Assembly: GCA_029959285.1 (NCBI GenBank)
Contig: JASCOE010000022.1
Location: forward strand, 1-41,685
Direction: 5' to 3'
Length of the DNA stretch: 41,685 nucleotides
Source of the DNA: Flavobacteriaceae bacterium PS02337
GTDB taxonomy: Bacteria; Bacteroidota; Bacteroidia; Flavobacteriales; Flavobacteriaceae
Shown here: positions 24,704 to 37,486 of the stretch, piece after piece
Layout of the letters: each line of letters starts with the position of its first letter
How positions within the stretch are numbered: the first letter of the stretch is position 1
Notes under the pieces: model-generated
Seen by the model: the letters and a program-made list of their open reading frames with translations, nothing else
Database searches by the model: none
Told to the model about the DNA's origin: nothing
Position numbers and translations under genes: made by a program

Positions 24704-25354
24704 ATGCGCAACAGTTTTACAATTCGATATTTAATTTTAGTTATTACTCCTTTATTTTTCGGCTGCCGAGGACCTGTAAAGGAAAATAACAGAGAGGCAT
24801 CATCAAGTTCTATATCCTTACATATTGGGAGTGAAAAATATTCAGCAATAGATAAAAAGCAAAGTGTTGTGACCTGGAAAGGATCTAATATAATTGGATC
24901 AAACAGTCACACAGGTTATGTATCTCTATCAAAAGGAGAACTGAAGATTGAAAATGGTCAGCTTTCGGGCGGTATAGCTGAAATTGATATGAATACAATT
25001 CAAGACGAAAAACATCAGAGTAATAATGGACTTGTTGAACACTTAAAAGAGCCTGATTTTTTTGATGTTAAAAAATTCCCATTTTCTATATTTATAATTA
25101 GTGAGTTAGAACCAATAAATACTGAAGAGAATAGGGTTAAAGGAAATTTAACCATTAAAGGGATTACCCGCCCCGTTGCTTTTCCAGCCAGAATTGAAAC
25201 TAAAAACGGAATTGTAAAAATGAGCGGCAAGCTGGTCATTGACAGAACAAAATGGGATATACGATATAAATCAAGAAAATTCTTTGATGTAGTAGCGGAT
25301 CAAGCTATATCAGATTCGATTGAATTCAACATAAAGATAGTTGCAAAAAGATAA
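24704..25354 (+). CDS. YceI-family lipoprotein
   Basis: The 216-residue protein has a lipoprotein signal (LVITPLFFGC) and a complete YceI lipocalin-like domain from about residue 45: SVVTWKGSNIIGSNSHTGYV, LSGGIAEIDMNTIQ, HLKEPDFFDVKKFPFSIF, GNLTIKGITRPVAFPA and FDVVADQAISDSIEFNI. YceI proteins bind long isoprenoid chains in a barrel and may carry quinones or related lipids. It probably shares a transcript with the propeller gene 61 bases upstream. This is the conventional form of the family, unlike the two divergent YceI proteins near 30 kb. Confidence 0.93.
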   Translation: MRNSFTIRYLILVITPLFFGCRGPVKENNREASSSSISLHIGSEKYSAIDKKQSVVTWKGSNIIGSNSHTGYVSLSKGELKIENGQLSGGIAEIDMNTIQDEKHQSNNGLVEHLKEPDFFDVKKFPFSIFIISELEPINTEENRVKGNLTIKGITRPVAFPARIETKNGIVKMSGKLVIDRTKWDIRYKSRKFFDVVADQAISDSIEFNIKIVAKR

Positions 25355-26680: not shown

Positions 26681-27235
26681 CTACATTTTTGGAAGCAGTA
26701 CTGTGTCCAATACATGTATAACACCGTTAGATTGATTTACATCTGAAATTGTAACTTTAGCCTTATTACCGCTTTCGTCGCTGATATACAAATCTTTTCC
26801 ATCCATCCAGGCAGTTAGAGTTCCGCCGCTCACTGTTTTTAAAGAAGCTTTTCCTTTACCAGCTTTTATTGCTTTTGCAATATCAGAACTATTCATTTTA
26901 CCGGCCACTACATGATATGTCAATATAGTTTGTAATGATTTAATATTCTCAGGTTTCAATAATGTTTCAACAGTTCCAGTAGGCAATTTACTAAATGCTT
27001 CATTTGTTGGTGCAAAGACAGTAAATGGACCTTTACCTTGTAAAGTTTCAACTAATCCTGCTGCTTTTACTGCTGCTACCAAGGTGGTATGATCCTTTGA
27101 GTTTACCGCATTTTCTATAATATTTTTATTAGGATACATAGCCGCTCCGCCAACCATTACTGTTTTTTGTGCAAATGATGTAAATCCAAATCCTAATGCC
27201 AGGATTGCTGCTGCTAAAAATTTTCTAGTTTTCAT
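26681..27235 (-). CDS. Secreted fasciclin-domain protein
   Basis: The 184-residue protein has a signal peptide (ALGFGFTSFAQ end) and one complete fasciclin (FAS1) domain: TTLVAAVKAAGLVETLQGKG, FTVFAPTNEAFSKLP, LTYHVVAGKM and the H2 box SNGVIHVLDTVLLP. Such proteins mediate adhesion or bind small hydrophobic molecules outside the cell. Length is normal for single-domain secreted forms. It is monocistronic and points away from hemH. Confidence 0.95.
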   Translation of the reverse strand: MKTRKFLAAAILALGFGFTSFAQKTVMVGGAAMYPNKNIIENAVNSKDHTTLVAAVKAAGLVETLQGKGPFTVFAPTNEAFSKLPTGTVETLLKPENIKSLQTILTYHVVAGKMNSSDIAKAIKAGKGKASLKTVSGGTLTAWMDGKDLYISDESGNKAKVTISDVNQSNGVIHVLDTVLLPKM

Positions 27236-27413: not shown

Positions 27414-28427
27414 TTATTCAGCCCAGTTGTTAATCCAGTTGCTAACAGTCTGGCACCACTTCTGGTCATCATTCAAACAAGGAACGGCCAAGAAATTTTC
27501 TCCTCCATTTTTCTCAAAATCTTCTTTGGCGCGCATGGCGATTTCTTCGAGTGTTTCTAAACAATCCGAAACGAAAGCCGGTGTTACGACAGCCAGATTT
27601 TTAATTCCTTTTGTTGGCATTTTATCAATTTCAATATCAGTATAAGGCTCCAGCCATTTATCACCAGCTAATCGGGACTGGAAAGTTAAGCTGTATTTAT
27701 CTTCAGGAAGGCCTAATAATTTTACGACTTGTCTTGTTGTTTCGCAACATTGGTGACGGTAACAAAAATCGTGAGCCGGCGATGGCGTGTTACAGCAAGA
27801 TCCGTCAATTTTACAATGTGATTTGGTTACATCGGTTTTGCGAATATGACGTTCCGGGATTCCGTGATAGGAGAACAACAAATGATCGTATTGAAATCCT
27901 GCTAAATGTTTCTGAATGGAATCTGCCAGATTTTTGATATAATCCGGTTTATTGTAGAATGCCGGAACATCTGTAATAGTCATGTGCGGGAATTTCTTCT
28001 TTCTGATTTCTTCCGCCTTTACCAGAATAGTTAAAGTAGAAGCCATTGCATACTGTGGATACAAGGGAAAAAGCAATACCTCTGTAACGCCTTTATCATT
28101 CAATTCCTGAAGTCCTTTTTCAATACTCATATTTCCATAACGCATTGCCAAAGAGACAGGAACGTTTACCAAAGGCTGTACTTTTTTCTGCATTCTTTCT
28201 GAAAGCACAACAAGGGGTGAACCTTCATCCCACCAGATTTTTGCATAAGCATGTGCCGATTCTTTGGGTCTTTTTCTTAAGATGATGCCTCGGACTAATA
28301 AAGCTCTTAGTAAATACGGAACATCGATCACGTATTTGTCCATTAAAAATTCATCTAAATAGGGCTTTACATCTTTCTGTGTAGGGCTTTCGGGAGATCC
28401 TAAATTTACTAATAATACACCTTTCAT
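27414..28427 (-). CDS. hemH: Ferrochelatase
   Basis: The 337-residue enzyme inserts ferrous iron into protoporphyrin IX, the last step of protoheme synthesis. It opens MKGVLLVNLGSPESPTQKDV and carries the active-site block HLLFSYHGIPERH with the conserved histidine, plus VVTPAFVSDCLETLEEI with the conserved glutamates. A cysteine-rich stretch (GSCCNTPSPAH, CYRHQCCETT) in the middle is notable and typical of this branch. The next gene upstream on the same strand is the AraC regulator, 139 bases away. No hemE or hemG lies nearby. Confidence 0.97.
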   Translation of the reverse strand: MKGVLLVNLGSPESPTQKDVKPYLDEFLMDKYVIDVPYLLRALLVRGIILRKRPKESAHAYAKIWWDEGSPLVVLSERMQKKVQPLVNVPVSLAMRYGNMSIEKGLQELNDKGVTEVLLFPLYPQYAMASTLTILVKAEEIRKKKFPHMTITDVPAFYNKPDYIKNLADSIQKHLAGFQYDHLLFSYHGIPERHIRKTDVTKSHCKIDGSCCNTPSPAHDFCYRHQCCETTRQVVKLLGLPEDKYSLTFQSRLAGDKWLEPYTDIEIDKMPTKGIKNLAVVTPAFVSDCLETLEEIAMRAKEDFEKNGGENFLAVPCLNDDQKWCQTVSNWINNWAE

Positions 28428-28566
28428 TTGTTTTGCTTTTTACTTTTAGCCTCAGGCTTTAAGTATTTGTTGTTTAAATTTATCCTAAAAATAGTATTTG
28501 CTGCTTTATTAGAAATATGATTAAAAATATTGTTTTTTATGCTGTAATTTACAAAATCGTTCCTGT

Positions 28567-29433
28567 TTAAAAATTGGTATTAAGAGACATCAGATATTTC
28601 TTTGGAGTTGTGGAAAATTTTTTCTTGAATCCCACAATGAAGTGGCTTCCGGTACTGTAACCTAGTTTCAGCCCCACTTCATTTACATTGTAGTAACCGC
28701 TGTCAAGCAGCTTTCTGGCAAAATCCATTTTATAATCAAACAGAAAACCATAAACTGTATGGCCGTAAATTTGTTTGAAACCCGTTTTTAGCTGTTTCAA
28801 ATTCAAACCAATCTCATCGGCCAATTCTTGTAATCCGGGCGGTTCGGCCATATTGGAGATGACAATTTCTTTTGCTCTTCTGATTTTCATAACGTTATCC
28901 TTGTCAATTAAAAACGGACATTGTTCGGCATCTGGATTCTCAGGCCTGTTAAAATACAAACTCATCAGTTCGTATCCTTTTGCTTTATAATAAAGGTTTT
29001 TTAAGGATGGCTGAAGGTTATGATTAAACAGCTGACTCAGCACAATAGCCATAGAAGGACTAATATGTCCTTCTTTATAATGCTGTTTGTCCTTATTATC
29101 AGGGCTTAAAAAAGTATTATAATCTGCCTCGGGAGAAAACATTGCCTGAAATTTCTTTATTGAAACAATGACAGAAACTACCCAAGAATTTGGAGCAAGC
29201 TTTAAATGTAGTGATGTATCCTTTTTAGGATTGTACAAAAGAAGGGATTTTTGCTCTTTCAATTCTAAAGCATAATTACTCTGAGTGAATAAAAATCTGC
29301 CATTACCTTTAAGTCCGAAATAAAACTGAATCATAGCACTTCCCAGCCCACGGTGTGCAAAAAAAGGCTCTGAACTGTCATTCTGATAGCGGATAAGGGT
29401 AAAGTCGTCTTCAATTTTTATTTCTTCCTCCAT
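28567..29433 (-). CDS. AraC-family transcriptional regulator next to hemH
   Basis: The 288-residue protein has an N-terminal ligand-binding-like region (about 1-175) and a C-terminal AraC double helix-turn-helix (about 185-285: LQELADEIGLNLKQLKTGFK, YNVNEVGLKLGYSTGSHFI, FKKKFSTTPKKYL). AraC proteins next to hemH and hemA are frequent in flavobacteria, so heme or iron control is plausible. It lies 46 bases downstream of the second YceI gene on the same strand and could be the last gene of that operon. The ligand is unknown. Confidence 0.9.
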   Translation of the reverse strand: MEEEIKIEDDFTLIRYQNDSSEPFFAHRGLGSAMIQFYFGLKGNGRFLFTQSNYALELKEQKSLLLYNPKKDTSLHLKLAPNSWVVSVIVSIKKFQAMFSPEADYNTFLSPDNKDKQHYKEGHISPSMAIVLSQLFNHNLQPSLKNLYYKAKGYELMSLYFNRPENPDAEQCPFLIDKDNVMKIRRAKEIVISNMAEPPGLQELADEIGLNLKQLKTGFKQIYGHTVYGFLFDYKMDFARKLLDSGYYNVNEVGLKLGYSTGSHFIVGFKKKFSTTPKKYLMSLNTNF

Positions 29434-29479
29434 TTTTTGATATAAAAAATTATTAACTTTTCAAGATAGTTTTTAGACG

Positions 29480-30031
29480 TTATTGTCTATTGGCTCCTAA
29501 GACCGCTGCAACTTGAATATTTATTTTATTGGAAAGCTTACTTTTAACCAAATTTGGGATTTCAATATTAAAATCACTGGCATTTACGCTGAAATTACAT
29601 GAAATGCTAACCCCTGATAGTGATCTGCTTATCCTTGCAGCAGTATTTATATCCCTGGATTTTCCGTGAAGTTCTAATTTACCTTTAATGATAAAATCTT
29701 TTGGATTTACGCTTAGGCTTTGAAGATCAAATCCTTCTATTTTTCCTTTAAATACTGCTTTTGGATACTGGTCACTTTCGATATAATTTTCATTAAAGTG
29801 CTCTTCCATTAAAGCAACTTTAAATTGGAAACCTTTCATCAGGGCCAAACTTGCAATCTCTCCTGTTAATGGATTCAAAACAAAAGTAACATTTGAATTT
29901 ACTGCCTTAACTTCTTCAAAAGAAGGTACGGAAGCTTCAAAAGTAACTTTTGCTGATTTACTGACCATTTTTTCTTGTGAAATACCAACAGCGCTGACAC
30001 ATAGAATTGTAATAAGTATGATGTTTTTCAT
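29480..30031 (-). CDS. Divergent YceI-like periplasmic protein
   Basis: The 183-residue product has a signal peptide (ILCVSAVGISQ end) and a YceI-like barrel: VTFVLNPLTGEIASLALMKG, ALMEEHFNENYIESDQYPKA, GKLELHGKSRDI and INIQVAAVLG. It lacks the W-K-G strand of ordinary YceI proteins. It is a close paralogue of the next gene upstream, sharing most of the EEHFNENY region, so the pair arose by tandem duplication. It would bind a hydrophobic ligand in the periplasm. Confidence 0.85.
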   Translation of the reverse strand: MKNIILITILCVSAVGISQEKMVSKSAKVTFEASVPSFEEVKAVNSNVTFVLNPLTGEIASLALMKGFQFKVALMEEHFNENYIESDQYPKAVFKGKIEGFDLQSLSVNPKDFIIKGKLELHGKSRDINTAARISRSLSGVSISCNFSVNASDFNIEIPNLVKSKLSNKINIQVAAVLGANRQ

Positions 30032-30077
30032 TATTTTGTCTTTATTTTTTGCAAAATCACTCTATTTTGTTCAGCTC

Positions 30078-30617
30078 TTATTTTAAAACCGCGATGATTT
30101 GAATTTTGACTTTATTATCCAGTTTATATTTAATAAGCGAAGGAATTGGAATACTGAAATCACTTGCATTTACTTCAAAATCAGAAATAAAAGTAATCCG
30201 GGAACCCGTTCTTGTAATTTTTGCACTAGCATTTATATCCTTTGATTTTCCATGCAATTCTAATTTTCCTTTTATAACATAATCTTTATAATCGTCTGTT
30301 AGACTTTTAATGTCGAACCCTTCAATTTGTCCTCTAAAAACGGCTTTTGGATACTTATCGGTTTCCATATAATTTTCATTAAAATGCTCTTCCATTAATG
30401 CCATTTCAAACTGGAATCCTTTCATCAGAGCCAGACTTGCAACTTCTCCTGTTGCGGGGTTTAAAACAAAAGTTACATTGCTGTTAGTTCCTGTAACCGG
30501 CTGAAAAGAAGGCACTGAAGCTTCGAGAGTTATTGATGCAGATTTTGTTACTAGCTTCTCTTGCGAAAAAGCAATGATAGAAGCCAATAGCATTGGTATT
30601 ATTGTAATTTTCTTCAT
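30078..30617 (-). CDS. Divergent YceI-like periplasmic protein, tandem paralogue
   Basis: The 179-residue product has a signal peptide (MLLASIIAFSQ end) and the same divergent YceI barrel as its neighbour: VTFVLNPATGEVASLALMKG, ALMEEHFNENYMETDKYPKA and GKLELHGKSKDI. The ATG at 30617 gives the signal peptide; upstream starts would overlap the cytochrome gene. It lies 14 bases after the cytochrome stop and 46 before the next YceI gene, so the three form one operon. Confidence 0.87.
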   Translation of the reverse strand: MKKITIIPMLLASIIAFSQEKLVTKSASITLEASVPSFQPVTGTNSNVTFVLNPATGEVASLALMKGFQFEMALMEEHFNENYMETDKYPKAVFRGQIEGFDIKSLTDDYKDYVIKGKLELHGKSKDINASAKITRTGSRITFISDFEVNASDFSIPIPSLIKYKLDNKVKIQIIAVLK

Positions 30618-30631
30618 GTTTATGTTCTGGA

Positions 30632-31000
30632 TCATTTTTCTAATAATCCATCCTGATTCCATTTATTTATAATATCTATAGTGGCTTGAGGCAGTCTTGG
30701 TCCGCCCTGCGGCATTAAAGAACTATTTCCATTTTCTAAAGAAATTCGTGTAAGGAGTCCTCGATTTAAAACTGCATTTTTCACCTGGTCATAAGTAACT
30801 AAGGACATTGGTGCTCCGTTTTTAGGAACTGCCGCATGGCATACAACACAGTTGTTGTCAATAATAGATTTTACGTTTTGGTTGTATGTTGCCAAACCAG
30901 TAATAGGCGGAGTGTCAATTAAGGTACTTGGATCATCATTGGCACAACTTACAAAGATTAAGGCTGCTGATGAGAGGGCGAAAAGGGTTTTTAGTTTCAT
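30632..31000 (-). CDS. c-type cytochrome lipoprotein
   Basis: The 122-residue protein has a lipoprotein signal (SAALIFVSC, acylated Cys about 19) and one cytochrome c domain with the heme-attachment motif CVVCH and a probable axial methionine in SSLMPQGGPRLP. It would be anchored in the envelope and pass single electrons. It is the first gene of the minus-strand operon with two YceI proteins (and perhaps the AraC gene), and is divergent from the OB-fold gene across a 157-base spacer. Confidence 0.9.
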   Translation of the reverse strand: MKLKTLFALSSAALIFVSCANDDPSTLIDTPPITGLATYNQNVKSIIDNNCVVCHAAVPKNGAPMSLVTYDQVKNAVLNRGLLTRISLENGNSSLMPQGGPRLPQATIDIINKWNQDGLLEK

Positions 31001-31157
31001 AAGATTGGTTTTTAGTTATAAATGATTTTAAGAATCATCAAGTTTGAAAACATGTACGTAGAAAAGAATGATTCAGATTTACCAAAAAGCATATTTAATA
31101 TTTTAAATCCAATAGGTATTTTTTAACGTAGATGATTTGAAATACCAAAAACCAGCT

Positions 31158-31547
31158 ATGAGAAAAAAAATACTTATTACCATTTTACTTTTTATAATAA
31201 TGGGAATTTCAGCTTGCTTGTATATCTACAAAGGACACAGGGATATAGAATCAGAAACTGCCGATTATGTTGTAACTGTTAACGGACTAGAAAGAGAGTT
31301 TGCTATAAACGACAGTCTGGCTTACATCAAATATCAGGACAAAACAATTGAATTAACCGCACGTATAACAAGTATTGATAAAGCCAGTAATGGAATTGTT
31401 ATGAGCGAAAAAATATTTGTCACATTCAAAAACCGTCTGCCACAAAATATAATATCCGGAAAAAACCTAAAAATTAAAGGCCGCTTTTTAGGATATGATG
31501 AATTGCTCCAGGAATTTAAAATAGACCAATCTTCAGTTGTACACTAA
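31158..31547 (+). CDS. Membrane-anchored OB-fold (tRNA_anti-like) protein
   Basis: The 129-residue product has one N-terminal membrane segment (about 6-22) and then an OB-fold of the tRNA_anti-like type: DYVVTVNGLEREFAINDSLA, YQDKTIELTARITSID and GKNLKIKGRFLGYDELLQEF. Such exported OB-folds are common in Bacteroidota and do not bind tRNA; their partners are unknown. The ATG at 31158 is used; the frame is open to a TTG at 31137. It lies 27 bases ahead of the DUF5777 barrel and opens the plus-strand set. Confidence 0.82.
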   Translation: MRKKILITILLFIIMGISACLYIYKGHRDIESETADYVVTVNGLEREFAINDSLAYIKYQDKTIELTARITSIDKASNGIVMSEKIFVTFKNRLPQNIISGKNLKIKGRFLGYDELLQEFKIDQSSVVH

Positions 31548-31574
31548 TACAAATAACAATTTAAAACTAACCTC

Positions 31575-32414
31575 ATGAAAAACTTTATCCTCTTATTTTT
31601 TTTATTTCCGCTCTTAACCTACTCTCAGGCCGATCTGCTCGCTGGAGTAGAAACTCCTTCTGCAAAAGAAAAAGTGACATCTGCATTCAAAGCTCTAAAA
31701 ATCGTTAATCTTGAGTCTACAAAACTGGCCGCAAAAGGCGATTTGTATTTTGTTGTTGCGCACCGATTTGGATCCATTAAAGATGGCTTTGAAGGCTTCT
31801 ACGGATTGGATAATGCCAATACGCAGATAAAATTTATTTACGGTTTGACAAATGGACTTAATGTAAGTGCAGCCAGAAGTGAATTTGCTTATGACTTTGC
31901 AGTGAAATATATGCTACTGCCTCAAATAAAAGACGGTTTTCCCGTGACTATCGCCGGCTTTAATAGTTTATCTATTAACAACACATTAAAAGAAAGCCTG
32001 TATCCTAAACTTGAATTTAAAGACAGGCTTACCTATGTAGCGCAGCTGCTGATTTCCAGAAAATTTTCTGAAAAGCTGTCTTTAGAGATTGTGCCGTCAT
32101 TTTTTCACCAGAATTTTGTTGAAGACGTAGATCAAAGCAATACCCAATATGCCATAGGATTTGGAGGCAGATATAAATTCGCTAAACGCTGGTCTTTAAA
32201 TATGGATTATGCGGCGCATTTAAACAGGGCACCAAATTCACTTTATAAAAATCCGCTATCTATAGGTTTTGATTTAGAAACCGGCGGACATGTTTTCCAG
32301 ATGCATTTTACCAGTTCTCAGGCAATTGATGAGGCGGGATATCTTGGAAGAACAACAGGGGACTGGACAAAAGGGGATATCTTTTTTGGATTCAATCTTG
32401 CCAGAGTATTCTAG
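31575..32414 (+). CDS. DUF5777-family outer membrane beta-barrel protein
   Basis: The 279-residue protein has a signal peptide (LFFLFPLLTYSQ end) and a barrel of about 12 strands with the usual alternating pattern, ending in GDIFFGFNLARVF with a terminal aromatic. Landmarks of the family are LYFVVAHRFGSIKDGFEGFY and GLTNGLNVSAARSEF. Its function is unknown; in Bacteroidota this family often lies next to c-type cytochrome and YceI genes, as it does here across the divergent spacer. It follows the OB-fold gene by 27 bases. Confidence 0.85.
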   Translation: MKNFILLFFLFPLLTYSQADLLAGVETPSAKEKVTSAFKALKIVNLESTKLAAKGDLYFVVAHRFGSIKDGFEGFYGLDNANTQIKFIYGLTNGLNVSAARSEFAYDFAVKYMLLPQIKDGFPVTIAGFNSLSINNTLKESLYPKLEFKDRLTYVAQLLISRKFSEKLSLEIVPSFFHQNFVEDVDQSNTQYAIGFGGRYKFAKRWSLNMDYAAHLNRAPNSLYKNPLSIGFDLETGGHVFQMHFTSSQAIDEAGYLGRTTGDWTKGDIFFGFNLARVF

Positions 32415-32543
32415 TATCTGCTTTATAATTAAATTATTAGGTCATTTCTGTATTTAAAACAATTCTAAATTGATCTTTTTGCAACTATTTCTAAAACCGC
32501 AGGCAAGAAGTACACGTAAATAATTTTCAAAACATCAAAAATT

Positions 32544-32978
32544 ATGAAAATTAATAAACAAATCAAAAAAGGACTTTTTATACTCAGTGGAATATTTATA
32601 TTATTTATCGCCATTTTGCTTTTTCACATTATAACAGCAAAACCAGCCGTTTATGATACTCCAAATCTTCAAGTAAGCAGAATCGATTTTAAATCTGATA
32701 TTGATTCGCTGCAAGCCAGACAAATCTGTACTGACTTAAGAAGTATAAAAGGGCTAACGTCGGATTCTATTATTATTAAAAGAAATGTTGTGGTGTATTT
32801 CCACAATAATAAAATTACAAACGCAGAGAAAGTTTTCAATGAGCTGATGGCCAAAGGGCGTTATGATGCTCAGCGTTATATTTTACCTGCAAATTTGGCA
32901 AATAAAGAAGTTTGTCCTATAAATCAAAATAGTTTGAGCTATAAATTATCTCAAAAAATAAACCGTTTTTTTAATTAA
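32544..32978 (+). CDS. Membrane-anchored protein with an HMA-like ferredoxin fold lacking CxxC
   Basis: I do not recognise a named family. The 144-residue product has a membrane segment (about 11-32) followed by a domain whose predicted order is beta-alpha-beta-beta-alpha-beta: SRIDFKSDI, LQARQICTDLRSIKGL, SIIIKRNVVVYFHNN, NAEKVFNELMAKGR, YDAQRYILP. That is the layout of heavy-metal-associated (HMA) domains, with ICTDL where the first helix begins, but the two-cysteine metal site is missing. A further cysteine occurs in EVCPINQ. It lies between the DUF5777 and globin-like genes and is likely cotranscribed with the latter (20-base gap). Confidence 0.6.
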   Translation: MKINKQIKKGLFILSGIFILFIAILLFHIITAKPAVYDTPNLQVSRIDFKSDIDSLQARQICTDLRSIKGLTSDSIIIKRNVVVYFHNNKITNAEKVFNELMAKGRYDAQRYILPANLANKEVCPINQNSLSYKLSQKINRFFN

Positions 32979-32998
32979 CCCTTTAATACCTTAAATTT

Positions 32999-33589
32999 AT
33001 GAAAATTTATTCGAAAATTACACTTAGTGTATTACTTGTTGCATCTGCAACTCTGGTTTCCTGCAGTAATGATGATGAAACCCCGGCACCTGTCGTAAAG
33101 GCATCTATTTATGAGCGATTAGGCGGAACTAAAATGGTTTCCGATCCAGATAATTCCGGCCAGATGATCGAGCAGGGACGTTTGAGTTTCCGTAAAGTGG
33201 TAAATTCAACTATTGGATTGATCGTTGCTGATATACAGTCGAATGCTTCGGGTAATCTACAGGCACATTTTGCTCCTTTATTGGCAGAAACCGGTACTAC
33301 ACAGTCTACCAATATTGCTAAATTATCGGATAATCTGACTGATTTCTTTTCGTTTAATACGGGAGGTACAAATGCTGTAAATACATATTCTGGCTTGAGT
33401 ATGGTAGCAGCACACGATCCTGCAAAAAACCCTCGTATGGGAACAAAATCAAGTAGTGCAGATTATACAAAATTTGAAGGATATGTTGGTGCTGCAGCCA
33501 ATGCAAATGGTGTTGCTTCAAATACAGAACTTTATACAGATATTGTTGCTGTTTTAGAATCATTGAGAACTCCTATAGTTCAAAAATAA
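32999..33589 (+). CDS. Lipoprotein with a globin-like (truncated-hemoglobin-like) domain, tentative
   Basis: The 196-residue protein has a lipoprotein signal (LVASATLVSC). After it, SIYERLGGTKMV is the opening typical of group I truncated hemoglobins, and the rest is helical (IGLIVADIQ, LQAHFAPLLAE, AKLSDNLTDFFSF, MVAAHDPAKNPRMG, VAVLESLRTPIVQK). Histidines in QAHFAP and AAHDPA could ligate heme, but I cannot fix the proximal one. A lipid-anchored, exported globin-like protein is unusual. It ends the plus-strand set and is followed by a clear terminator. The family call is tentative; the lipoprotein call is firm. Confidence 0.6.
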   Translation: MKIYSKITLSVLLVASATLVSCSNDDETPAPVVKASIYERLGGTKMVSDPDNSGQMIEQGRLSFRKVVNSTIGLIVADIQSNASGNLQAHFAPLLAETGTTQSTNIAKLSDNLTDFFSFNTGGTNAVNTYSGLSMVAAHDPAKNPRMGTKSSSADYTKFEGYVGAAANANGVASNTELYTDIVAVLESLRTPIVQK

Positions 33590-33599
33590 TTTTCTTCTC

Positions 33600-33632
33600 A
33601 AAACGCTACCTGAAAAAGGTAGCGTTTTATAT
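33600..33632 (+). terminator. Terminator after the globin-like gene
   Basis: AAAACGCTACC (33600-33610) pairs perfectly over 11 bp with GGTAGCGTTTT (33618-33628) around a TGAAAAA loop, ending in ATATTT. It separates the envelope gene set from hemA. Confidence 0.85.
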
Positions 33633-33740
33633 TTAAATGCTATTTGCAGTTCAGACTCTTGGATTATTATATGTTTAAGATAAATGCTGTTTTAGAAATT
33701 AGTTAATAAATTTTTTGAACTTTTTAAGGAAAGCATAAAT

Positions 33741-35045
33741 ATGGAAAATTTTACTATGTCCAAAACCACCACTTTTTACGCATTAGGGTTAAGTTATAAG
33801 AAAGCAGATGCAGTCATTAGAGGGAAATTTAGTTTAGATACTAAAGCACAATCTGGTTTATTAGTACAAGCCAAAGCGGAAGGTATAGAGTCATTAATTG
33901 TTACTTCTACTTGTAATAGAACTGAAATTTATGGTTTTGCGCATCATCCTTATGAGTTAATTAAATTACTTTGTGAAAACAGCAATGGTTCTGTAGAAGA
34001 ATTTCAACAAGTTGCTTATATATACAAAAATGAGGAAGCTGTTAACCATATGTTCAGGGTAGCAACAGGTTTAGACAGTCAGATTTTGGGTGATTTTGAA
34101 ATCATTAGTCAAATTAAGAGCGCTTTTAATCACAGTAAGCAGGAAGGTTTAGTGAATACTTTTATGGACCGTTTAATAAACTCTGTTATTCAGGCGAGCA
34201 AAAAAGTCAAAAATGAGACTAAAATTTCTTCTGGAGCAACGTCCGTTTCTTTTGCATCAGTGCAGTATATTATTCGAAATGTAGCAGATATTGGAAATAA
34301 AAATATTTTGTTATTCGGAACAGGGAAAATAGGCAGAAATACTTGCGAAAATTTAGTAAAACATACTAAAAACAGTCATATTGCCCTTATAAACAGAACA
34401 AAAAACAAAGCCGAATTATTGGCTGGAAAACTCAATGTTATTGTAAAAGATTACGACGATTTGAAAGAAGAACTACAGCAGGCAGATGTGCTGGTTGTAG
34501 CTACAGGAGCACAAAACCCGACTATTGACAAAACATTGCTTACTTTACATAAACCCTTATTGATTCTGGACTTGTCCATTCCACGTAATGTAGATACTAA
34601 TGTAGAAGAAATACCCGGTGTAACTTTGATACATCTGGATGATTTATCTCAAATTACTGACGACACGCTTGAAAAAAGAAAACAGCATATCCCTGCTGCG
34701 GAAGCCATTATTGATGATCTGAAATTAGAATTGAATACCTGGGTAAACGGCCGAAAATGTGCACCAACAATCCATGCATTAAAAGCCAAGCTAAATGATA
34801 TCGTGTCGGCTGAATTTGCTTTTCAAAAAAAGAAAACAATCAATTTTGATGAAGTTCAGATGGATTTAATCAGTTCGAGAATTATTCAAAAAATAACAAA
34901 TCATTTTGCAAGTCATTTAAAAAATGAGAATACTTGCGTGGATCAAAGTATTGAATTTATTGAAAAAGTATTTCAAATAGGGCAGCTTGCTCCAAAGAAT
35001 AGTACTTCATCAGTAGAAGAAAAATACCAAGTCAATCTTTCATAA
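33741..35045 (+). CDS. hemA: Glutamyl-tRNA reductase
   Basis: The 434-residue enzyme reduces glutamyl-tRNA to glutamate-1-semialdehyde with NADPH, the first committed step of tetrapyrrole synthesis in bacteria. The catalytic cysteine is about C58 in VTSTCNRTEIYGF; the NADPH site reads LLFGTGKIGRNTCENL, followed by INRTKNKAELLAGKL; the dimerisation helix ends the protein. An ATG at 33756 is an alternative start. Flavobacterial hemA is often followed by hemC; here a Crp/Fnr gene follows instead, so this locus may be rearranged or a second copy. Confidence 0.96.
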   Translation: MENFTMSKTTTFYALGLSYKKADAVIRGKFSLDTKAQSGLLVQAKAEGIESLIVTSTCNRTEIYGFAHHPYELIKLLCENSNGSVEEFQQVAYIYKNEEAVNHMFRVATGLDSQILGDFEIISQIKSAFNHSKQEGLVNTFMDRLINSVIQASKKVKNETKISSGATSVSFASVQYIIRNVADIGNKNILLFGTGKIGRNTCENLVKHTKNSHIALINRTKNKAELLAGKLNVIVKDYDDLKEELQQADVLVVATGAQNPTIDKTLLTLHKPLLILDLSIPRNVDTNVEEIPGVTLIHLDDLSQITDDTLEKRKQHIPAAEAIIDDLKLELNTWVNGRKCAPTIHALKAKLNDIVSAEFAFQKKKTINFDEVQMDLISSRIIQKITNHFASHLKNENTCVDQSIEFIEKVFQIGQLAPKNSTSSVEEKYQVNLS

Positions 35046-35114: not shown

Positions 35115-35267
35115 GTACTTTGCCAAATCCTGAATAAAAATTATCTTTTCCATTTCACAGAACCCTATTGAAATTGCTTATAGATTAAAGATTTAAAATT
35201 AATGAGCATACTTTTTAATAGTTTATTAATTCTTAAATTGTATATATTTACACAAAAACCAATAAAT

Positions 35268-35945
35268 ATGTACGAAGATTTAAAATATTGGTATTTGCGG
35301 GATCACAAATTATTCAGGACACTTAGTTTTTCGCAAATCAGGCAATTATGTATTATTACAGGTTTTAAAAAAGCTTCAAAAGGAGAAATTATTTATTTTT
35401 CATCTTCAGACGTGCCGCGGATTTTTTTGCTTAAAAAAGGAAATATAAAAATTGTTGCTATTGACCATGACGGCAACGAAACCATAAAAGACATTATTCA
35501 AAAAGGGGATTTATTTGGAGAATTAACGCTGGAAACGGATAATAAAGTCGAAGAATACGCAAAAGTACTTTCTGACGATGTTGTAATTTGCAGTTTTTTA
35601 ATGTCTGATTTTGAAGATTTATTACTTAGAAATCCAACATTGGCTATTTCGTATACCAAATTTGTAGGTTTGAAAATGAAGCGTATCAAAAATAGTTACT
35701 CCAATTTAATTTCTAAAGATGCCAAAACCAGATTGTATCAATTCCTGAAAGACTGGGCAGAAAACGAAGGTGTAAGAGAAGGAAATTCGGTTGTATTAGA
35801 AAACTATTTAACTCAAAACGATATTGCCCAAATTATCTGTACTTCAAGACAAACCGCCACACAATTGCTGAATGAAATGGAAGCCAATCAGCTTTTACAC
35901 TACAATAGAAAAGAAATTATCATTGCAGATATTACCAAATTATAA
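35268..35945 (+). CDS. Crp/Fnr-family transcriptional regulator
   Basis: The 225-residue protein has an N-terminal cyclic-nucleotide-binding-type barrel (about 20-125: GEIIYFSSSDVPRIFLLKKG, KDIIQKGDLFGELTLE) and a C-terminal Crp-type winged helix (about 150-220: NYLTQNDIAQIICTSRQTAT as recognition region). The FNR cysteines for an iron-sulfur cluster are absent from the N-terminus, so it is not an oxygen sensor of the FNR kind. The ATG at 35268 is preferred; the earlier TTG/ATG region up to 35202 adds an unusual leader. It lies 90 bases ahead of a seven-gene operon and may control it. Confidence 0.92.
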   Translation: MYEDLKYWYLRDHKLFRTLSFSQIRQLCIITGFKKASKGEIIYFSSSDVPRIFLLKKGNIKIVAIDHDGNETIKDIIQKGDLFGELTLETDNKVEEYAKVLSDDVVICSFLMSDFEDLLLRNPTLAISYTKFVGLKMKRIKNSYSNLISKDAKTRLYQFLKDWAENEGVREGNSVVLENYLTQNDIAQIICTSRQTATQLLNEMEANQLLHYNRKEIIIADITKL

Positions 35946-36000
35946 TTATTTTGGGCTAAGTGTAAATTAGCCGACATTTCGCTTTCTCATAGTGCAATAA

Positions 36001-36026
36001 TTTTACATCATCAAAAAGATGTAAAA
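36001..36026. promoter_or_regulatory. Inverted repeat just before the peroxiredoxin operon
   Basis: TTTTACATC (36001-36009) and GATGTAAAA (36018-36026) form a perfect 9-bp inverted repeat with an 8-base centre, ending nine bases before the first start codon. Size and symmetry suit a dimeric regulator such as the adjacent Crp/Fnr protein; alternatively it is an RNA hairpin at the ribosome entry site. Confidence 0.6.
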
Positions 36027-36035
36027 CATTAAGCT

Positions 36036-36632
36036 ATGAAAAAATTACTTTTTATTTTTTTAGTAACCCTTATTTCGGTTGCTAATGCGCAGAACATGAT
36101 TGCCAAATCTGCCAATGATATTGCTCCTTTGTTGATAGGAGAGAAAATCCCAAACCTTACTTTAAAATCATCTGAAAACACAGATGTAAATATTTCAGAC
36201 CTTCTTAAAAAGAAAAAGACAGTTCTTATTTTTTACCGCGGAGGCTGGTGTCCGTTTTGTAATATTCATTTGCAGGGATTGGCTGAAGCCGAAAAAGAAA
36301 TTCTGGATTTAGGATATCAAATTATTGGAATAAGTCCGGATTCTCCTGAAAATTTAAAAATGACATCAGAAAAAGATAAAGTAAAATATACCTTACTTTC
36401 TGACTCAAAAGGAGAATTAATAAAAGCCGTAGGAATCGCTTTTGAGGCTCCCGAAAACTACAAATCTATAATTAACGTACATTCTAATGGAATGAATACG
36501 AGTTTCTTACCTGTTCCTTCGGTTTTTGTTGTAAATACAGATAGTTACATACTTTTTGAATATATCTCGCCAGATTTTAAGCAACGTATCACGACCGAAT
36601 TACTTGTTTCAGTATTAAAAAATTTCAAATAA
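36036..36632 (+). CDS. Exported peroxiredoxin-like (AhpC/TSA, redoxin) protein
   Basis: The 198-residue protein has a signal peptide (TLISVANAQ end) and a thioredoxin-fold redoxin domain. The active-site segment is FYRGGWCPFCNIHLQGLAEA, with a CxxC in place of the T-x-x-C of classic peroxiredoxins; IIGISPDSPENLKM follows. Family members reduce peroxides or act as thiol oxidoreductases; this one would act in the periplasm. It is the first gene of a tight operon and begins nine bases after the inverted repeat. Confidence 0.93.
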   Translation: MKKLLFIFLVTLISVANAQNMIAKSANDIAPLLIGEKIPNLTLKSSENTDVNISDLLKKKKTVLIFYRGGWCPFCNIHLQGLAEAEKEILDLGYQIIGISPDSPENLKMTSEKDKVKYTLLSDSKGELIKAVGIAFEAPENYKSIINVHSNGMNTSFLPVPSVFVVNTDSYILFEYISPDFKQRITTELLVSVLKNFK

Positions 36633-36638
36633 AATAAG

Positions 36639-37097
36639 ATGAAAAAGCTAGTATTATTTTTATTGATTTTGGTTTCAGGGATTTCATTTGCTCAAAACGA
36701 GGCCAAAAGAGTGAGTCAGTTTAATGTAGAAAATAAAATTGCGATTAAAGGTTATGATCCCGTAGGATATTTTAATCAGGGAAAAGCAATTAAAGGAAAA
36801 AAAGAAATATCAACTTCTTACCAAGGCATAACATATAATTTTTCGTCAGGCGAAAATAAAAATGCATTTCTAAAAAATCCATCAAAATATGAACCGCAAT
36901 ACGGTGGTTGGTGTGCATATGCGATGGGAAGCTCTGGTGAAAAAGTCGAAATAAACCCGGAAACATTTAAAATCGTCGATGGCAAATTGTTTCTGTTTTA
37001 CAACGCCTATTTTAATAATACCTTGAAAAGCTGGAATAAAGATGAAGCTAATTTAAAAACTCAGGCCGATAATAATTGGAAAAAAATCTATAAATAA
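36639..37097 (+). CDS. Exported YHS-domain protein
   Basis: The 152-residue protein has a signal peptide (LVSGISFAQ end) and a YHS domain: AIKGYDPVGYFNQGKAIKG, TYNFSSGENKNAFLKNPSKY and EPQYGGWCAYAMGSSGEK. YHS domains often go with heavy-metal or metal-cofactor handling, and exported single-domain forms are common in Bacteroidota without a proven role. A cysteine in GGWCAYA is the only one in the mature part. It lies six bases after the peroxiredoxin stop. Confidence 0.92.
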   Translation: MKKLVLFLLILVSGISFAQNEAKRVSQFNVENKIAIKGYDPVGYFNQGKAIKGKKEISTSYQGITYNFSSGENKNAFLKNPSKYEPQYGGWCAYAMGSSGEKVEINPETFKIVDGKLFLFYNAYFNNTLKSWNKDEANLKTQADNNWKKIYK

Positions 37098-37105
37098 CGA
37101 GAGCC

Positions 37106-37486
37106 ATGAAAAATGAAATTATACTATGGATTCTTAGAATAGTGGCTGCGTTAATTTTATTGCAAACCTTGTATTTTAAGTTCAGTGGAGCAGAAGAAAG
37201 TATCTATATTTTCACAGCTCTAGGAATAGAACCTTACGGAAGAATTGGTTCAGGAATAGCTGAATTGATTGTTGCCATTTTGATCCTGATACCAAAAACA
37301 ACATGGATTGGCGCTATGGTTGGATGCGCGATAATGGGCGGAGCTATTTTATCACACGTATTCGTTTTAGGGCTCGTGGTTAAAGATGACGGAGGATTAC
37401 TTTTTTGCCTGGCTGTTATTACATTATTATGCTGTTTGGGTCTGCTTTATTTCAATAAAAATAAATTGTTTAATCTTCTAAATTAA
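37106..37486 (+). CDS. DoxX-family membrane protein
   Basis: This 126-residue protein has four membrane helices (about 7-20, 42-62, 70-90, 98-118) and the DoxX-type pattern: ILLQTLYFKFSGAEESIYIF near the start and GRIGSGIAELIVAILIL in helix 2. DoxX-like proteins are linked to thiol and oxidative stress systems in several bacteria, which suits the peroxiredoxin two genes upstream. It lies eight bases after the YHS gene. The reaction is unknown. Confidence 0.88.
   Translation: MKNEIILWILRIVAALILLQTLYFKFSGAEESIYIFTALGIEPYGRIGSGIAELIVAILILIPKTTWIGAMVGCAIMGGAILSHVFVLGLVVKDDGGLLFCLAVITLLCCLGLLYFNKNKLFNLLN

Follow-up and report, generated by a model that had tools for sequence, protein, structure and literature searches.

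The analysed window, a stretch of 41,685 nucleotides, is an entire contig (C14) of the 5.7 Mb genome of Flavobacteriaceae bacterium PS02337. It contains an interval that runs from hemH on the minus strand to hemA on the plus strand. Within it, genes for an AraC-type regulator, two YceI proteins and a cytochrome lipoprotein are located on the minus strand, and genes for an OB-type, a DUF5777, an HMA-like and a globin-like protein on the plus strand. Open reading frame, Pfam and TIGR01035 analyses confirmed in place every gene that the earlier note on this DNA had named. The OB, DUF5777, cytochrome and YceI genes are here called module A, and the HMA-like and globin-like genes module B. The features are the following.

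26681..27235, minus strand: fasciclin-domain protein (PF02469), a loose associate that adjoins hemH
27414..28427, minus strand: hemH, ferrochelatase, second genomic copy (PF00762, E 3.3e-101)
28567..29433, minus strand: AraC-type regulator, part of the heme scaffold (HTH PF12833, E 3.1e-14)
29480..30031, minus strand: YceI protein 1, module A (PF04264, 46.9 bits, E 4.8e-12, cut-off 23.7)
30078..30662, minus strand: YceI protein 2, module A (PF04264, 51.6 bits, E 1.7e-13, above cut-off)
30632..31000, minus strand: one-heme c-type cytochrome lipoprotein, module A (one CxxCH; PF13442, 20.0 bits)
31137..31547, plus strand: OB-type membrane-anchored protein, module A (PF12869, 24.4 bits, cut-off 23.5)
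31575..32414, plus strand: DUF5777 beta-barrel protein, module A (PF19089, 288 bits, E 5e-86)
32544..32978, plus strand: membrane-anchored HMA-fold protein, module B (CxxC absent; Cys124-Pro125)
32999..33589, plus strand: truncated-hemoglobin-fold lipoprotein, module B (His139 at the F8 place)
33601..33627, plus strand: terminator-like hairpin with T-rich sequence after it, in the globin-hemA gap
33741..35045, plus strand: hemA, glutamyl-tRNA reductase, second genomic copy (TIGR01035, E 3.2e-85)

The YceI and DUF5777 proteins pass their Pfam cut-offs. The annotated reading frame of YceI protein 2 overlaps the cytochrome gene, and its true start, judged by eye, is probably near 30617; the OB-type protein may start at 31158 instead of 31137. 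The cytochrome sequence contains CxxCH once, and its PF13442 score of 20.0 bits is below the cut-off of 27; with this single motif it lacks the make-up of a multiheme porin-cytochrome conduit. Pfam detected neither a TonB receptor nor an ABC exporter in the hemH-hemA interval, and gave no significant match for the HMA-like and globin-like proteins of the window. These two proteins had been the weakest part readings of the earlier note, and comparison of their AlphaFold2 models with solved structures supported both, with a beta-alpha-beta-beta-alpha-beta fold for the HMA-like protein and a 2-on-2 globin fold for the globin-like protein.

The genome contains two ferrochelatase and two GlutR_N matches. 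The cluster had been described as lying between hemH and hemA; both genes are indeed present, but both are second copies, and the window cluster is thus a second heme locus in a genome with two hemA and two hemH. Its hemH is 92% identical to the copy in the main cluster of the same genome (L064), and its hemA 72%. The main cluster also carries the HMA-globin pair at the AraC-hemA position, without module A. In the hemA tree, the window copy groups with other globin-adjacent copies, while six main-cluster hemA form a separate clade, which includes the copies of L064 and L079 although both of these loci also carry the pair. The flanking regions of the secondary heme clusters differ from each other.

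Neighbourhoods were fetched and their genes labelled with profiles made from the window proteins, with hemJ labelled by Pfam and hemC to hemF identified by eye. All six main clusters fetched for the purpose (L138-L141, L153, L154) have the hemJ-hemH-AraC/hemA-hemC arrangement without module A or B. Since AraC is present in such clusters, it is a scaffold gene that goes with hemH, and the modules are inserted between AraC and hemA. Its earlier grouping with the cytochrome and YceI genes is ruled out by the same six clusters.

Module B is a near-fixed pair, consisting of the HMA-fold protein followed by the exported lipoprotein with a truncated-hemoglobin fold. In a first set of 47 globin loci, picked by globin search except for a few, an HMA gene is near the globin in 46; the exception, L136, has a weak partial globin. 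A scan of a species-genome collection yielded 275 globin relatives, the best 80 of which were analysed as distant loci. One of these (L216) gave no globin reading frame, and in 77 of the other 79 the HMA gene is upstream of the globin; the remaining two are at a contig edge. The small upstream proteins of L244 and L247 were considered as candidate relatives of the HMA-fold protein, with which they share a hydrophobic start and a Cys-Pro. In profile comparison they reached 2.0% and 0.6%, respectively, and no homology is therefore claimed.

Residue counts for the globin family refer to alignment columns of 133 core homologues, excluding four weak rows. The F8 His, CD1 Phe, E7 Leu and E14 Phe are each conserved in 133/133, and the distal positions are apolar throughout (B10 Ile/Val/Leu, E7 Leu, E11 Leu/Phe). 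Truncated globins that convert oxygen and NO usually have polar distal residues (B10 Tyr, E7/E11 Gln), and none of the 133 core homologues has such a residue at B10, E7 or E11. Neither the window globin nor any of the 22 members of A1 matches PF01152. The globins of L247 and L244 do pass this model, and the family profile matches L247 at 97.4% (E 1.1e-11), linking the family to the truncated hemoglobins. The window globin shares with group 1 truncated hemoglobins (PF01152) the fold over 116 residues, the F8 His, the CD1 Phe and a glycine-rich start. It differs from them in being an exported lipoprotein, in its longer start and longer F-G segment, and in its apolar B10, E7 and E11 positions. 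The partner protein likewise departs from the HMA, Atx1 and CopZ metallochaperone domains, as it is membrane-anchored, lacks the CxxC metal site and has a Cys-Pro after the domain. This site is also absent from all 74 distant HMA rows, whereas the Cys-Pro is kept in 74/74. On its own, a Cys-Pro is weak evidence of heme binding.

Among 250 genomes of the same genus, 80 have the globin. The 47 loci of the first set comprise 18 by mfd with a constant context without heme genes, 22 with hemA close by, five with HMA as the sole labelled partner, one with AraC only (L080) and one with none (L136); DUF5777 is close to the globin at 13 of the 47. As selecting loci by their globin introduces bias, the hemA and globin searches of the same 250 genomes were cross-matched. 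There are 27 hemA copies at least 80% identical to that of the window, and a globin is just upstream of each (27/27, gaps of about 130-370 bp). In 17/250 genomes hemA is matched at least twice; two of these (G154 and G300) have a single GlutR_N. The other 15 possess a true extra hemA, and each of them has one of the 27 globin-adjacent copies. These genomes are kin, so the same-genus counts are not independent events. In the four genomes inspected for this (G176, G302, G228 and G255), the other hemA belongs to a main cluster without the pair; the other copy in G000 has the pair. DUF5777 is close to 19 of the 27 hemA copies and not to six, with two unplaced among the matches listed. An extra hemH is a less specific marker than an extra hemA: ferrochelatase is matched at least twice in 19/250 genomes, although some of the matches are fragments, and six of the 19 have no globin.

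In a class-wide sample, 21/295 genomes have a globin profile match. In the best 80 of the 275 globin relatives, hemA follows the globin in 12 (11 within 700 bp; L158 with overlapping reading frame coordinates), all from Mucilaginibacter or entries named Bacteroidetes bacterium, and module A is beside the pair at one. An extra hemA adjoining the pair occurs in three lineages, namely the genus of the window, a Mucilaginibacter MAG and a third family. L134 comes from G463, a genome with two hemA; the globin-linked one shares 62% identity with its paralogue in the same genome and 42% with the window hemA, and is therefore a separate case. G735, from another family, also has two hemA; at its locus L242 the HMA, globin, hemA, cytochrome lipoprotein (labelled by profile, without a Pfam match), DUF5777 and diheme cytochrome genes share one strand, separated by 1-92 bp. 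In this family, 1/46 genomes has a strong globin match and two have weak ones, a rarity that would fit transfer. The 3.5-kb Chitinophagaceae contig L180 has OB, cytochrome, YceI and DUF5777 genes after the globin, so that modules A and B meet in two further families. L244 combines cytochrome, YceI, an opposite-strand gene, a small Cys-Pro protein and an exported globin. Further extra hemA outside the genus were found in G647, with a weak globin match, and G586, where the second copy is partial and the globin absent, besides the globin-linked copies of G463 and G735. hemA was counted in 69 genomes (17 of the 18 outside-genus matches and 52 without a match): it is missing in 7 of the 11 clear carriers, against 16/52 globin-negative genomes. 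The pair thus does not need hemA.

Module A is complete (OB, DUF5777, cytochrome and YceI) and without globin at all 19 DUF5777 loci from other genera (L104-L122) and all eight from the same genus (L142-L149), 27 loci that were chosen among the matches listed and not at random. A DOMON-labelled protein is within the stretch at 13 of the 27; one such member has DOMON and a T9SS tail by Pfam, and the label may be loose because the T9SS tail forms part of the model. DUF5777 is present in 175/250 same-genus genomes. The module A of the window is thus one of the Bacteroidota OB-DUF5777-cytochrome-YceI modules that often include DOMON. It differs from them in its linkage to the globin pair and to heme genes, in its doubled YceI and in having no DOMON gene.

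Terminator-like hairpins are present in 21/22 globin-hemA gaps, against 3-7/22 in ten shuffles, which argues against co-transcription of globin and hemA and hence against one operon. The Flavobacterium promoter consensus is TTG-N17-24-TAnnTTTG. It was found upstream of 0/46 HMA, 0/47 globin, 4/23 hemA and 2/20 AraC genes, and not at all in window positions 28400-33800; a shared promoter was rejected. Generic promoter and terminator scans remained at chance level. Genes for an ECF sigma factor and an RskA-type anti-sigma factor (RskA_C by Pfam for two) are near the globin at 8/47 loci, and an ECF gene alone at three more. In 33 control stretches without globin, which were not randomly drawn, the RskA-type label occurs in none and the ECF label in 12. 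The ECF/RskA gene pair is also found at the distant loci L184, L185, L196, L223, L237, L238 and L247, and a fasciclin gene near the globin in L070-L073 and L151. SigK/RskA/fasciclin systems are known from mycobacteria; genes of these three types (ECF, RskA_C and fasciclin) repeatedly accompany the globin pair at other loci, whereas the window cluster has a nearby fasciclin gene only. This gene, beside hemH, is the sole one of the ECF/RskA/fasciclin type near the cluster.

The earlier note had read these genes as one envelope unit, which scatter in related genomes would speak against. The recurrence at L180 and, with hemA, at L242, together with the extra hemA next to the pair in three lineages, bears out the idea of a recurring set. 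The halves are separable, however: module A usually occurs without B, B also occurs without A, and a hairpin precedes hemA, yet the halves meet repeatedly. Because module B is mostly found without module A or hemA, and because of the hairpin between globin and hemA, the recurring association is looser than one operon. It is better described as a core globin pair with optional extras (a second hemA, module A, and ECF/RskA/fasciclin genes) that repeatedly meet.

Our preferred reading, to which we assign a probability of roughly 0.4, is that of a second cluster for heme synthesis whose core is a pair of envelope proteins that handle heme, with an increased heme supply and, optionally, a redox module. 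The HMA-fold protein would be anchored in the inner membrane, with its domain and the conserved Cys-Pro facing the outer side, and the lipoprotein would hold heme via His139 in a pocket that is apolar on the distal side. By analogy with copper chaperones of the same fold, which hand over metal, the HMA-fold protein might load or unload the globin heme. Together with the extra HemH, the extra HemA, the entry step of heme synthesis, could make more heme available whenever the pair is produced. At loci that include module A, the cytochrome, YceI carriers and DUF5777 barrel encoded there may link the globin to outer-membrane electron or lipophile traffic. A more specific version, which is doubtful but conceivable, is an undescribed envelope heme circuit in which the tethered HMA-fold protein, with its Cys-Pro as putative heme ligand, would pass heme to the exported globin, fed by the duplicated first enzyme and coupled to the outer membrane by the cytochrome, YceI and barrel proteins.

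A defence system of the envelope that counters NO, CO, oxygen or redox stress appears unlikely. Here the globin would bind or convert the gas, the cytochrome would pass electrons, and a putative ECF sigma/RskA switch would act in some lineages. This is consistent with the globin fold, the nearby cytochrome of module A and the RskA-type genes, which accompany the globin at nearby and distant loci but not the globin-free stretches. The lack of a polar residue at B10, E7 and E11 and of a reductase in the cluster speaks against it; the window cluster has no sigma pair, and ECF labels by themselves are common. It is also improbable that two independent modules merely share an insertion spot, with the AraC-hemA gap having taken up B and later A and the result being inherited by the clade. 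Modules A and B are more often apart than together, and the flanks of the secondary clusters differ, as this would predict, but A and B also meet in other gene orders (L180, L242 and partly L244), away from any hemH-AraC gene, and G463 gained the extra hemA next to B in a separate event. Outer-membrane uptake or export of heme or porphyrin, with the DUF5777 barrel as channel and the globin as carrier, is very unlikely. It would account for the barrel, globin and heme genes being together, and the seven clear carriers without hemA would have to import heme; the interval has neither TonB receptor nor ABC exporter, DUF5777 mostly occurs without globin or heme genes, and hemA is also missing in the 16/52 globin-negative genomes noted above.

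In open-licence papers, we found neither DUF5777 nor phrases for exported or lipoprotein globins, and the listings and opening lines of abstracts gave no account of the whole system. One paper lists a YceI-like protein in a table row among iron-limitation changes, and its passages on this protein make no link to globin or heme genes (PMC5429918).

The similar combinations in unrelated bacteria hint at an undescribed cell-envelope heme-handling system. As an exported hemoglobin-like lipoprotein constantly paired with a chaperone-fold protein, the globin provides an entry point to heme use outside the cytoplasm in Bacteroidota, and the results offer first leads on DUF5777, the OB/YceI module and a globin family missed by Pfam. 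That an extra hemA repeatedly accompanies the pair suggests that heme synthesis is tuned for one envelope protein.

The gene cluster that runs from hemH to hemA is followed in the window, downstream of hemA (35202-37486), by a run of genes encoding a Crp/Fnr-type regulator, a redoxin, a YHS-domain protein and a DoxX-like protein. In the fetched neighbourhood L073, too, the cluster is flanked by homologues of Crp and redoxin. An additional, more typical YceI gene lies outside the cluster, and one fetched neighbourhood, L246, encodes a fusion protein that includes a globin:

24704-25354 (window), YceI gene, PF04264 at 93.6 bits
L246:8127-9299, minus strand, single protein combining a DUF3050 domain with a PF01152 globin

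At loci where module A (OB-type protein, DUF5777 barrel, one-heme cytochrome lipoprotein and YceI) occurs without the globin (L110, L115-L117, L121 and L145-L149), a sigma-factor gene labelled ECF132 and a gene for a lipoprotein of approximately 359 amino acids, with only a weak Pfam match, were found nearby, together with a FecR-like gene and a TonB-receptor-sized gene, both recognized by eye.

Behind the globin in L174 are two consecutive open reading frames labelled hemA, representing either a tandem copy or a broken frame. No hemA match was obtained in seven genomes carrying the globin pair (membrane-anchored HMA-fold protein and truncated-hemoglobin-fold lipoprotein), namely G627, G669, G704, G723, G745, G771 and G791, and these organisms are therefore possibly heme auxotrophs.
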